Source: Hyphomicrobiales bacterium (lineage in GTDB: Bacteria; Pseudomonadota; Alphaproteobacteria; Rhizobiales; Rhizobiaceae). From it: DNA of 64,000 nt. Below are positions 51,073 to 56,120 of the stretch, in pieces (the stretch's first letter is position 1; each line of letters opens with the position of its first letter). A model generated the notes under the pieces. The model did no database searches and was not told the origin of the DNA. It saw only the letters and a program-made list of their open reading frames with translations. The stretch is from positions 409,648 to 473,647 of the forward strand of contig UCGV01000001.1 of assembly GCA_900471925.1 (NCBI GenBank), written 5' to 3'. The translations under genes and the position numbers were made by a program.

Positions 51073-52953
51073 TTAACCTGCCATCGCCTCCTCATATTCG
51101 GCAGAGAGTTCAAGCCATTGCTCTTCTGCGGCAGCGAGCTTTGCCGCAGCTTCACCTCGCTGCTTGGCCTTTTCGGCGGCCTTGGCAGGAGCTTTCTCGT
51201 AGAGCGCGGGGTCCGCAAGCTCTGCATCAAGTCCCTGAATCAGTTTCTCCAACTTGCCCGTCAAGGATTCGATTTCATTGATCTTTTTCTTGAGCGGCGC
51301 GAGCGATGCGCGCCTGTCGGCATTGAGCTTGCGCTGGTCGGCCTTCGACGTCTGCTCATCGGCCTGCTTCGGCTCTTCCTTCTTCTTGCCTGAGGCAACG
51401 ATCAGATCGCGATATTCGTCCATATCGCCTTCGAAGCTTGTCACCGTGCCATTGTTGACCAGCCACAGTCGATCGACGGTCGCCTCGATCAGGTGCCGGT
51501 CGTGCGAGATCAGGATCACGGCGCCGTCATAATCGTTCAGCGCCTCGATCAGCGCCCGGCGGCTGTCGATGTCGAGATGGTTGGTCGGCTCGTCGAGGAT
51601 GAGCAGGTTCGGCGCGTGGAAGGCGGCAAGCCCCATCAGCAGGCGTGCCTTTTCGCCGCCCGAGAGATCCTTGGCCGCTGTCGCCATCTTTTCGGTCGCA
51701 AGACCCATCTGTGCCACACGTGAACGCACCTTCGCTTCCGGCTCGGTCGGCATCAGCCGGCGCACGTGCTCGACCGGCGTCTCGTTCGGCACGAGGTCGT
51801 CGAGCTGATGTTGGGCGAAGAAGCCGATCTTCAGGCTCGGCGCCAGGCGCAGATCGCCGCTTTCCGGCGCCAGCCGTCCCGAAATGAATTTGGCGAAGGT
51901 CGATTTGCCGTTGCCGTTCGAGCCGAGAAGCGCGATGCGGTCGTCATTGTCAATGCGCAGGTTGAGCCCTTTGAGGATCGGCTTGCCGGGCTCGTAGCCG
52001 ACGGCGCCACCGCTGATCGCGACGATCGGCGAGGCCGGCTGCTTTTCGGGCTCAGGGAAGGTAATCGGCTGGACGTGATCCTCGATGACGGCGGCAACAG
52101 TGCCCATGCGCTCCAGCGCCTTGACGCGTGACTGCGCCTGCTTGGCCTTTGAAGCCTTGGCCTTGAAGCGATCGATGAAGCTCTGCAGGTGCTTGCGCGC
52201 CGCATCGTTTTTCGCCTTGGCCTTCATCTGCAATTCGTCGGCTTCTGCCTTCTGCCGTTCGAACTGATCGTAATTGCCGCGATAGAAGGTGAGCTTCTTC
52301 TGGTCGAGATGCACGATGGAATTGACCGCGTTGTTGAGCATGTCGCGGTCATGGCTGATGATGATGACCGTGTGCGGATAGCGGCGGATATAATCCTCCA
52401 GCCACATCGTTCCCTCAAGGTCGAGATAGTTGGTCGGTTCGTCGAGTAACAGCAGGTCAGGCTCGGTGAAGAGCACTGAGGCGAGCGCCACGCGCATGCG
52501 CCAGCCGCCCGAAAAGGACGAGGCTGGCCGTGCCTGTGCTTCCTGATTGAAGCCGAGGCCGGAAAGGATGCTGGCGGCACGAGCTTCCGCAGAATGGGCG
52601 TCGATATCAACGAGGCGCATCTGTATCTCGGCGATCCGGTGCGGATCGGTTGCCGTCTCCGCTTCGGCCAGCAGGGCAGCGCGCTCCTTGTCTGCCGACA
52701 GCACGATCGTGATCAGCGAGTCCTCCGTTCCCGGCGCCTCCTGCTTCACCTGGCCCATCCGGGCATTCTTAGGGATCGATATTGTCCCGCTTTCTGCACC
52801 GAGGTCGCCCGTGATGACGCGGAACAGAGTGGATTTGCCGGCGCCGTTGCGCCCCACAAGCCCGGCCTTTGTGCCGGCGGGCAGCGAGACGCTGGCATGG
52901 TCAAGAAGCAGGCGGCCGGCAATACGGGCGGAAATATCTGAAATCGTGATCAT
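51073..52953 (-). CDS. ABC-F family ATPase (YheS/Uup type)
   Basis: A 626-residue soluble protein with two ABC cassettes joined by an ABC-F linker. Cassette 1: Walker A VGRNGAGKSTLF, signature SSFSGGWRMRVALA, Walker B LLLLDEPTNYLD. Cassette 2: LGSNGNGKSTFAKF, DLSGGEKARLLMGL, LLILDEPTNHLD. A C-terminal coiled coil (about 540-620, Lys/Ala/Glu-rich) follows. ABC-F proteins act on the ribosome; the YheS-like architecture fits. ATG at 52953. A hairpin (51064-51088) surrounds its stop but has no T tract. Confidence 0.92.
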   Translation of the reverse strand: MITISDISARIAGRLLLDHASVSLPAGTKAGLVGRNGAGKSTLFRVITGDLGAESGTISIPKNARMGQVKQEAPGTEDSLITIVLSADKERAALLAEAETATDPHRIAEIQMRLVDIDAHSAEARAASILSGLGFNQEAQARPASSFSGGWRMRVALASVLFTEPDLLLLDEPTNYLDLEGTMWLEDYIRRYPHTVIIISHDRDMLNNAVNSIVHLDQKKLTFYRGNYDQFERQKAEADELQMKAKAKNDAARKHLQSFIDRFKAKASKAKQAQSRVKALERMGTVAAVIEDHVQPITFPEPEKQPASPIVAISGGAVGYEPGKPILKGLNLRIDNDDRIALLGSNGNGKSTFAKFISGRLAPESGDLRLAPSLKIGFFAQHQLDDLVPNETPVEHVRRLMPTEPEAKVRSRVAQMGLATEKMATAAKDLSGGEKARLLMGLAAFHAPNLLILDEPTNHLDIDSRRALIEALNDYDGAVILISHDRHLIEATVDRLWLVNNGTVTSFEGDMDEYRDLIVASGKKKEEPKQADEQTSKADQRKLNADRRASLAPLKKKINEIESLTGKLEKLIQGLDAELADPALYEKAPAKAAEKAKQRGEAAAKLAAAEEQWLELSAEYEEAMAG

Positions 52954-53176
52954 GCGCGCGTTTTTGGCCGAAAGCCGCTGTCAAGGCAAGTGCGCAGATG
53001 GCGCGTGCAACCTGTTGCACGGCTCGGTTGGTTCATCCGACGGGCGTAGCATATGATGTAATTCTTTATTAAACGAAATCTTATATTTTAATCATGTGGA
53101 TGATCCATCGCCATCGACTTGCACTCATGGCGCTCCGGCCCTGTGCTAATGCCCGTTGTCCTGACAATTCACGTCC

Positions 53177-53476
53177 ATGAACCGTCTGGTCGTCTTTGCG
53201 CATTTCACCTTGTTTCTGGCGCTCATGCTTGCCGTATGGGCCGTGCCATCAGGGCGTTACGTGCTGGTTGTCACACATCCGGATGCCGCAGCGGACAATA
53301 TATTCACGGTGATCGGCCGGGCAGGCGGTTCCTTCGTGGGGCCGGGGCGACTCTCGTGGATGGCGGTTGCCTATTCCGATGAAAGCAATTTTCCAGCGCG
53401 CCTGATGCAGGCCGGCGCTCTCGTCGTGCTCAATCACAGCCTGGCCGTCGGCTGCCAGCAAGGAGACCAGAAATGA
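53177..53476 (+). CDS. small exported protein coupled to a chemoreceptor gene
   Basis: A 99-residue protein with an N-terminal signal or anchor helix ([19 protein letters not shown], residues 5-23) and a short extracytoplasmic domain ([50 protein letters not shown]). Its TGA overlaps the next ATG (ATGA), so it is coupled to the chemoreceptor gene. No strong ribosome site precedes its ATG. I do not recognise a named family. Location suggests an accessory periplasmic sensor piece for the receptor; inference only. Confidence 0.65.
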
Positions 53477-55062
53477 ATGCGCTGAATGAACTCCGCGGAA
53501 AGATTTCGCCCGGCATCCTCGCTCTCCTTTGGATCAATGTCGGTCTCATCGTCCTCAGGTCATTCGTCCGCGAAGACGGGTTCGAGCTTTGGCCTGTTGT
53601 TGCTGCCGTGCTGATTGCCAGCGTCACCAGCGCCGGCTGGGTCCAGGATCGGATAGGCCCGACCACGCGGGTGGTCACCGCGATGTCCCATGCGGCGACG
53701 GTTGCGATCCTCGTCTACTGCTTCACAGGTTCGCCGCTGCAGATCGACATGCACATGTATTTCTTCGCGTCCCTGGCGATCTGCTCTGCCTGGATCGATT
53801 GGCGCGCCATCGTTGCCTATGCGGCCCTTGTGGCCGTTCATCATCTGGCGCTCTTCGTCATCGCGCCGCTGGCCGTTTTCCCCGGCGCATCCGGCTTCGA
53901 CAGAGTCGTGCTCCACGCGGTCGTGCTCGTCGTGCAGGCCGGTGTATTGATGATATTGACGTCAGCCGTCGTTGCCGCTTTCGCTTCGGCTGACAAGGCG
54001 GTCGTCACCGCCAACGAAGCCCAGCGTCAGGAGCGGGAAATGAGCGAAAGGGCCCGTCAGTCCGATCGCCAGGTCGAAAGCGAGCGGCAAGGCCGTGAAG
54101 ATGAACGCCGCCGTGAGGCCAGCGCGCTGGAATTCGCAGTCAATACGCTCCGCCATGCCCTTGCCGAACTTTCCGGCGGCAATCTGTCTGCCAGGATTTC
54201 CGCCCATCTGCCCGGCGATCTCGACAATCTGCGCCTTTCCTTCAATCAGTCGGTCGAAAAACTGGAGGAAGCGATTGCGCAGGCCAGTTCCGTCAGCGAA
54301 GGCGTTCGCGATGGCGTGGGACAGATCAGCGAGGCAAGCCGCGACCTGTCGACGCGTACCGAGCGTCAGGCAGCATCCATCGCCGAGACCGTTGCTGCTC
54401 TCGGCCATGTCACCGCCGTCGTGCGCCAGACCGGTGGTGTCGCCGAAAAGGTCGGCAAGCTCGTCACTCATGCAAAAGCAGGTGCGGAGCGTTCAGGCCA
54501 TATCGTCACCAGTGCCGTCGATGCGATGGGGCGGATCGAAAACAGCTCCCACGAGATCAACCAGATCATCGGCGTTATCGACGATATTGCTTTCCAGACG
54601 AACCTTCTGGCTTTGAATGCGGGTGTCGAAGCTGCTCGTGCCGGCGAAGCAGGCAAGGGCTTTGCTGTCGTCGCCCAGGAAGTGCGGGAGCTGGCCCAGC
54701 GATCGGCAAGTGCAGCAAAGGAAATCAAGCAGTTGATCAATGCCTCAGGCGAACATGTGAAGAGCGGCGTCGCCCTTGTCGATCAGGCGGGCGATGCGTT
54801 GACAACGATCGCAAGCGAGGTTTCCGAAATAAGTGGTCACATCGCCACCATCGTCAGCGGCGTTCGCGAACAGTCAACCGGCCTGTCGGAAATCAGCACG
54901 GCCATTTCTGAGATCGACCGCAGCACCCAGCAGAATGCAGCGATGGCCGAAGAATCCTCGGCGGCGACGGTCACTCTTTCTCGGGAAGCCGATGTGCTCG
55001 AAGGACTGATGGCAGGCTTCCGCACAGGTGGTGCTGCCAGGTCTGTCCGGGCGGTGGCCTGA
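53473..55062 (+). CDS. methyl-accepting chemotaxis protein with multi-helix membrane sensor
   Basis: A 529-residue chemoreceptor. Residues 1-175 contain about six membrane helices with almost no periplasmic loop, replacing the usual ligand domain; conserved-looking His residues lie in them ([25 protein letters not shown]). A charged coiled coil (about 180-215), a HAMP-like stretch ([12 protein letters not shown]) and the MA signalling domain follow, with the hairpin tip [22 protein letters not shown] near residue 400. No CheR-tethering pentapeptide at the C-terminus. The ATG at 53473 has AGGAGA six bases upstream. Confidence 0.92.
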
Positions 55063-55067
55063 TCGCC

Positions 55068-56120
55068 TTACCGCCCGAAAGCCTGCACCGGCTGGCGTGG
55101 GTTGGACTGGGCGGCAAGCAGCGCCACGCGGGCATTCGCCTGAAGCTGACCGGAGGTGGCTGCATCGCCGCTGAGTGCCACACCGACTGAAATCGTCAGG
55201 CCGCTCGCCTCTGATGTATCCGATGCCGCAAAGACAAGATTATCCTCGACCGAGCCACGCAGACGCTCTGCGATGGCAAGCGCATCCTGCATGCCGACAT
55301 TGGCAAAGAGGAAGGCAAATTCGTCGGCATCCGTGCGAGCGATGAAGTCGTTCTTCTTGACCGTCTTGCGGAAGAGGCCGGCGAGTTTCTTCAGAAGCTT
55401 GTTGCCAGTCTGTGTGCCGTAACGGCTGTTCAGATCCTTGAAATCGTCAATGTCGATCATGATCAGCGCGCTACCGGCCGCACCCTCTTCCTGGCTGTAG
55501 AGGTCGTCGAGCGCACGGTTGAGGCCGATACGGTTCGGCAGACCGGTGATCTTGTCGGTGACAGCAGCGGTCTGCACGGCGGAGATCCCGCGCTCCAGCG
55601 CCGTCAGCCGCTCGATATCCTCTCCCAGCTTCGTGCCGATCGTCCGCTCAGCGGCAAGCACCGCCGATAGTGAAGAGGAGAGATAGTCGACCTCGGCCAT
55701 GAAGTCGGCGAGGCTTTGATGTTCCTGCTGGCCGGAGACGGACTTGAGGATGGTCTCGCAGGCGCGTGCGAAAGCCTGATGATGCAGGCGTCCCTCGGCC
55801 AGGCGTTCTGCGGTCTCCTTGAGAACACGGCTTGCCTCGTTGCGCGAGCGGTCGCCTGCCAGTCCGTAGTGGCCGACCAGCCGGTAGCGCAGGCCGAGTT
55901 CGTCCAGCGCCTCCTGCTGCGGATGCGGACCGAGCGCCGCGATATCCTGCGCCAGCCCGGCATTCAGGCCGACCAGCGCCTCGTGGAACAGTTCGTAATT
56001 GCGCGGCAGACTGGCAATATTGAGCCGCAACATATGCTGAGCGACCTTCTGGATATCGGCCGCCGACGTCGGCCGGGCGATCTCGCGAGCATTCAACGTG
56101 TTTGCAACGGCAGTCGGCAT
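55068..56120 (-). CDS. degenerate GGDEF-domain protein
   Basis: A 350-residue cytosolic protein. Residues 1-160 are alpha-helical and unnamed; residues about 180-345 form a diguanylate cyclase-like fold (TDKITGLPNRIGLNRALDDL; MIDIDDFKDLN). The active-site signature reads TDADEF in place of (G)GGDEF, the NDxxGHxxGD block is changed to NSRYGTQTGN, and no RxxD inhibitory site precedes it. It is unlikely to make cyclic di-GMP and may instead bind nucleotide or protein. It converges on the chemoreceptor gene with five bases between stops. Confidence 0.85.
   Translation of the reverse strand: MPTAVANTLNAREIARPTSAADIQKVAQHMLRLNIASLPRNYELFHEALVGLNAGLAQDIAALGPHPQQEALDELGLRYRLVGHYGLAGDRSRNEASRVLKETAERLAEGRLHHQAFARACETILKSVSGQQEHQSLADFMAEVDYLSSSLSAVLAAERTIGTKLGEDIERLTALERGISAVQTAAVTDKITGLPNRIGLNRALDDLYSQEEGAAGSALIMIDIDDFKDLNSRYGTQTGNKLLKKLAGLFRKTVKKNDFIARTDADEFAFLFANVGMQDALAIAERLRGSVEDNLVFAASDTSEASGLTISVGVALSGDAATSGQLQANARVALLAAQSNPRQPVQAFGR

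Follow-up and report, generated by a model that had tools for sequence, protein, structure and literature searches.

A small gene overlaps a chemoreceptor gene

The window, by which we mean the whole 64,000-nucleotide stretch of DNA analysed here, contains a small gene followed by a chemoreceptor gene on the same strand (Table 1). The overlap between the stop codon of the first and the start codon of the second suggests that the two are translationally coupled. Its neighbours are an ABC-F ATPase gene in divergent orientation (51073-52953, minus strand) and, on the other side, a GGDEF gene in convergent orientation (55068-56120, minus strand); no sigma-70-like promoters or terminators were found in 52900-55300. 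In its own genome the small gene is present as a single copy, with the next matches at E >= 0.16, and 31 places match the MCP signalling domain. The loci of relatives showed nothing informative among conserved neighbours besides the pair; the recurrent neighbour clusters, some of which are unreliable owing to mechanical ORF choice, look like the shared background of close relatives.

Table 1 Features of the small gene and the chemoreceptor gene (positions in the window).
Feature	Position	Strand	Basis
Small partner gene (P0001), 99 aa plus stop, ATG start	53177..53476	+	ORF; homologues; dN/dS of relatives
Predicted N-terminal membrane helix of small protein, residues 3-22, N-terminus probably inside	53183..53242	+	AlphaFold2 helix; proposed orientation
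Ferredoxin-like (b-a-b-b-a-b) domain, residues 28-91, predicted periplasmic	53258..53449	+	AlphaFold2; fold matches
Codon of invariant Cys93, small protein	53453..53455	+	Alignment of relatives
AAGGAG, Shine-Dalgarno-like hexamer for receptor, within small gene	53460..53465	+	Sequence; 7 nt 5' of receptor ATG
ATGA stop/start overlap of small gene and receptor	53473..53476	+	Sequence; -4 overlap in 73/213 pairs with a callable start
Chemoreceptor gene (P0002), 529 aa	53473..55062	+	ORF; PF00015
Six-helix membrane sensor domain, about residues 1-165	53473..53967	+	AlphaFold2; alignments
D92 and H94 codons (DMH of DxHMYFF, start of helix 4)	53746..53754	+	Alignments; cluster scoring
H123-H124 codons (helix 5)	53839..53844	+	Alignments; cluster scoring
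R144 to H148 (start of helix 6)	53902..53916	+	Alignments; cluster scoring
MCP signalling domain PF00015, residues 330-483	54460..54921	+	Pfam match

The receptor has a six-helix membrane domain with a conserved Asp/Glu and His cluster

The PF00015 match (4.6e-49, 167 bits versus a cut-off of 34.6) identifies the larger protein as a methyl-accepting chemotaxis protein. An AlphaFold2 model built from 61 sequences (pLDDT 92.4) comprises helices at residues 2-32, 39-58, 63-83, 89-107, 110-130 and 142-197, the last of which extends towards the signalling domain. Only short periplasmic loops lie between the six predicted helices, in agreement with the preliminary description, which had credited the receptor with almost no periplasmic domain. 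No sensor family of known periplasmic ligand-binding domains (Cache, 4HB and the like) scored over its cut-off in the receptor; such a domain is not required of every MCP. Named Pfam membrane sensor domains (MASE, MHYT and similar) were likewise not found in residues 1-200, where the best match was TgpA_N at 20.2 bits versus a cut-off of 30. Foldseek returned no match at E <= 0.001 for the membrane-domain model in the PDB, and its top match, ImcA (E 0.35), was not significant. Sensory rhodopsin, which has seven helices and a retinal lysine, was also considered as an identity and rejected, six helices being predicted for the domain.

Receptor alignments showed that D92, H94, H123, H124, R144 and H148 are invariant or nearly so, and these residues probably sit towards the periplasmic end of each of helices 4, 5 and 6. 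The combination of D/E92, H94, H124 and H148 was intact in all 215 scorable receptors of the 218 that are paired with a small gene. It was also found in 12/12 scorable homologues (14 in all) from outside Alphaproteobacteria and in 8 of the 11 scorable unpaired alphaproteobacterial receptors (14 in all). Coupled position pairs within the receptor (120-152, 117-156, 78-97 and 74-120) suggest that H94, H123/124 and H148 sit at about the same level. The signalling motif, searched for by regular expression, was absent in 15/218 paired receptors, and 7 had too short a tail.

The small protein is predicted to be an anchored ferredoxin-like domain with one invariant cysteine

The small gene evolves as a protein-coding gene: dN/dS was 0.04-0.26 in 13 pairs of its relatives (last 90 codons), indicating purifying selection, a result that rests on the relatives, from which the window's own gene is too distant for usable dS. 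AlphaFold2 (63 sequences, pLDDT 88.1) predicted a hydrophobic helix at residues 3-22 followed by a b-a-b-b-a-b domain, whose predicted secondary structure is that of a ferredoxin-like fold. The 99-residue anchored or secreted protein overlapping the receptor start, as it was first described, is borne out by the ATGA overlap together with this helix. We lean towards a membrane anchor rather than a cleaved signal, since no consistent cleavage motif was seen by eye.

The sole cysteine of the window's small protein, Cys93, is invariant across the 63-row alignment. All 218 paired small proteins have a cysteine within the last 90 residues, and 191/218 have exactly one there. A lipobox reading of the C-terminal xGC was rejected, because the cysteine lies beyond the folded domain and, by our reading of the model, a second membrane helix is not predicted.

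The fold appears to be a common plait that names no function. The closest solved folds to the model were subtilisin prosegments (Z 8.3 at best), with heavy-metal-associated (HMA) domains at Z ~5. For the subtilisin propeptide (inhibitor I9), the comparison yielded fold similarity, a best Foldseek E of 0.019 and no Pfam match; no PDB entry matched the model in Foldseek at E <= 0.001. Matches to the small-protein profile in a PDB sequence search were at chance level (best E 0.21). The protein had no Pfam or NCBIfam match above cut-off, and the same held for ten further family members (six orphans and four paired), with three matches below cut-off. HMA metallochaperones typically have a CxxC metal motif, and this identity was rejected, P0001 having a single cysteine and 191/218 relatives exactly one in the last 90 residues. 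Periplasmic solute-binding proteins are large and two-lobed; this identity was rejected too, the product being 99 aa long with one small domain.

The small gene accompanies the receptor across Alphaproteobacteria

The preliminary description had proposed checking the co-occurrence of the two genes. We used the receptor's membrane domain to scan a genome collection in which each of 84,980 species is represented once, and obtained 460 relatives; among the best 80 of these, the small gene was directly upstream at 77 loci, or, counted as unique domains, upstream of 75/78 (iterated profile, E <= 0.01). In random samples of 398 phylum genomes and 385 class genomes, 67/78 unique alphaproteobacterial six-helix domains had the small gene directly upstream by the same profile and threshold. 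Before counting, we removed duplicate sequences as well as domains whose profile E exceeded 1e-6. The close matches are biased towards pairs because the profile seeds came from paired loci, a bias that affects the random samples less; the iterated profile also includes sequences of tested loci. At E 0.001, the small gene was counted at 121 of 156 domains with a 12-sequence profile, 128 with a 63-sequence profile and 141 with the iterated one. Matches elsewhere than directly upstream of a receptor were limited, with each profile, to 2 of the 9,720 ORFs at these loci, both directly downstream of one. A single-sequence scan of the genome collection with the small protein itself found nothing.

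Absence of the small gene beside orthologous receptors had been named as the outcome that would speak against the idea; the partner is instead kept at most alphaproteobacterial loci. Outside the class the result was different: none of the 14 six-helix homologues from the rest of the phylum sample had a detectable small gene, and the 27/398 genomes of that sample in which the profile found the gene all belong to the window's class.

The original observation of the small gene and receptor is confirmed as real, and it had been understated. Since homologues throughout the class hold the same place and the gene evolves as a protein, the arrangement is not due to chance. Spacing within the pair varies among relatives from overlap to over 60 nt. 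Among 213 pairs with a callable start (5/218 lacked one), the -4 overlap occurred in 73, and 124 had no overlap. The ATGA overlap and the internal Shine-Dalgarno-like site would fit a small gene that is a mere translation-coupling leader, or an unrelated gene carried along; purifying selection, the conserved fold and cysteine, a linkage kept though the gene order is reversed in some lineages, and the 124/213 pairs without overlap argue against this reading, which is already disfavoured and which we regard as very improbable. The occurrence of both gene orders and the variable spacings favour a functional connection over a device for translation.

Receptors and small genes that occur apart

Among the 11 alphaproteobacterial exceptions in the random samples, two (L225 and L229) carry the small gene immediately downstream, and in a tandem of receptors (L243, two entries) it comes after the second. 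The other seven (L238, L187, L188, L189, L244, L245 and L246) had no partner detected within about 5-7 kb; the cluster is lost in L188, L189 and L246 and kept in L238 and L187, and L244 and L245 were not scorable. As for the scan set, L109 stands second in a tandem in which the leading receptor is paired, and L075 and L101, both from Sinorhizobium sp., have a broken receptor frame and no detected small gene, so that both halves of the pair may be decaying together.

Some further arrangements were seen. Tandem six-helix receptors stand beside one small gene, which precedes them in L109 and follows them in L324. In L009/L017 (G029), the receptor membrane domain is split over two frames and the adjoining small gene is intact. 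A contig labelled Arenimonas sp. (L068, a MAG) carries a pair that by reading is very close to that of Ciceribacter (L065); this contig is probably misbinned.

The small gene was present in 105/397 genomes of the order. At the loci examined there, the receptor follows in 83/112 and does not follow in 29/112, one of the latter (L263) having only 356 bases of sequence after the gene. Three of the 29 genomes with an unfollowed small gene (G080, G125 and G161) also hold a paired copy; of the other 26 orphan genomes, 24 lack a six-helix receptor at E 1e-6, which indicates that the small fold has uses beyond this receptor. The listed orphan proteins keep a cysteine towards the end.

Seven orphans (L286, L289, L295, L300, L305, L308 and L315) are encoded roughly 370-480 bases downstream of a large same-strand ORF, which is an MFS transporter (PF07690) in the two tested (L286 and L295) and alike by reading in the others. 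Five more (L022, L043, L130, L131 and L267) follow an ORF of 379-404 aa; those of L022 and L130 had no Pfam match.

Evolution of the pairing

A quick tree was built from 142 membrane domains, namely 119 paired (thinned by identity), 12 unpaired and 11 from outside the class. The outside-class receptors form one side of a branch (SH-aLRT 98), and one paired sequence (L235) adjoins them. The paired label requires 10 changes on this tree versus 21.6 in shuffles, several unpaired rows having long branches. These sequence comparisons would fit one early association of the small gene with the receptor, followed by scattered losses. As the homologues without a partner show, the six-helix core is able to stand on its own.

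A proposed two-protein chemoreceptor

For this pair it is established that the small protein is under selection, that its gene is almost always linked to the receptor in one order or the other, that certain residues are invariant, and which folds are predicted. Building on these, we propose that the pair is probably a two-protein chemoreceptor, in which the 99-aa protein serves as a dedicated second subunit and would form a lid over a six-helix bundle with an Asp/Glu and His site. One N-terminal membrane helix would hold the small protein, and its ferredoxin-like domain, with the conserved cysteine in the C-terminal region, would cover the periplasmic face of the bundle. Strands 1 and 4 of a b-a-b-b-a-b fold are antiparallel; by this topological reasoning Cys93 would come to the membrane side. 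All residues of the cluster (D92, H94, H123/H124 and H148) would sit at the same depth, a few residues beneath the periplasmic surface. The stimulus, which we guess to be a bound ligand, a metal or haem cofactor or a redox state, would alter this site or its surroundings, and the small protein might help to read the change. Helix 6, a long helix that runs on towards the signalling domain, could move in response and thereby control CheA.

A test for coevolution between the two proteins was negative and lent no support to contact between them: for the top 10 to 200 coupled pairs, topological agreement was at chance (p 0.28 to 0.92), in a weak test of 191 pairs (about 147 effective, 27/218 having been dropped for gaps).

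The small protein perhaps covers an intramembrane metal, haem or redox site. More specifically, a sensing centre might lie at the subunit border, where a metal, haem or redox thiol would be held by H94, H123/124, H148 and Asp92 together with the single periplasmic cysteine of the small subunit, making the pair an envelope sensor of redox, metal or gas dating from early in Alphaproteobacteria; we put this forward tentatively and consider it rather doubtful. A haem is weakly hinted at, possibly by chance, by the 5-aminolevulinate synthase neighbour in two close relatives: the gene in L007 (84-1355, minus strand; TIGR01821 over cut-off) lies divergently beside the pair, and a similar gene is seen by reading in L006.

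The same features could be explained if the small protein were a maturation factor, which would insert or stabilise the six-helix domain or deliver metal or haem to the cluster and stay outside the working receptor. Its conserved cysteine, the occurrence of a ferredoxin-like fold in heavy-metal-associated domains (Z about 5), the cluster kept by every scorable paired receptor and the synthase gene adjoining the pair in L007 would agree with this explanation. However, typical metallochaperones have a CxxC, which the family lacks (one cysteine in the last 90 residues in 191/218); linkage to one receptor type exceeds the need of a general chaperone, and the synthase neighbour occurs only in L007 and, by reading, L006. 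We therefore regard a maturation role as unlikely.

The preliminary description is supported in part: the small protein has the predicted topology of an exported protein, is linked to a receptor that lacks a periplasmic domain and co-occurs with it across genomes. That it supplies the missing ligand-binding part of the receptor is a conjecture. The outside-class domains keep the histidine cluster without the small gene, which suggests that the sensing core may reside in the membrane domain and that the small protein is a lid, modulator or helper. Taken further, these domains (12/12 scorable with the cluster, 0/14 with the small gene) would allow the membrane domain to sense alone and the small protein merely to tune it as an inhibitor or as a localisation or array-packing factor. 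A partner with an invariant cysteine has, however, been kept through much of the class, suggesting chemistry rather than packing alone, and we consider a purely tuning role quite unlikely.

Relation to known receptors

The second-subunit proposal can be set beside several known systems. Chemoreceptors are normally viewed either as sensors complete in themselves or as relying on shared binding proteins. MBP-Tar and PstS-CtpL are examples in which a chemoreceptor uses a periplasmic solute-binding protein, a soluble, large partner that is shared with transporters and binds the receptor's periplasmic domain. The pair described here resembles them in that an exported protein would aid sensing by the receptor, but its partner has 99 aa, is apparently anchored and is tied to one receptor type without a periplasmic domain. 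PMC4926252 deals with the phosphate case.

In archaeal phototaxis, sensory rhodopsin and Htr form 2:2 complexes of a seven-helix receptor and an MCP-like transducer, according to PMC3274258. Like the proposed pair, this is a two-protein taxis receptor in the membrane; its separate sensor is the multi-helix protein, whereas in the present pair the six helices belong to the MCP itself and the second protein contributes a single one. In QseG-QseE (PMC12691602), too, a separately encoded envelope protein works with a membrane sensor, but QseG is a lipoprotein of the outer membrane and its target QseE is a histidine kinase. Other six-helix receptors of Pseudomonadota have E-x-H-F, HH and H148 motifs; they share the homologous domain and the same cluster (12/12 scorable) and differ in having no detected small partner (0/14). 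The MCP signalling motif was found by regular expression in 7/14 of these outside-class homologues.

Two-protein taxis receptors are thus already known, as sensory rhodopsin-Htr and as binding-protein partners. A dedicated single-helix subunit of ferredoxin fold for a six-helix MCP was not found described in the open-access PMC literature searched, and the excerpts of PMC12654446, PMC3274258 and PMC6978683 do not describe the pair. If the proposal is true, it would add a new receptor design, in which a receptor without a periplasmic domain has a widespread, near-obligate and dedicated second subunit. Rhizobia and many other Alphaproteobacteria carry the pair.

In an Agrobacterium vitis record the small gene is annotated as a hypothetical protein only, so partners of this kind can easily go unnoticed. 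Of eight plasmid records with a homologue, four annotate a hypothetical protein, three have no feature there (one of these, the record of H4, contains just one feature altogether) and one is unannotated.
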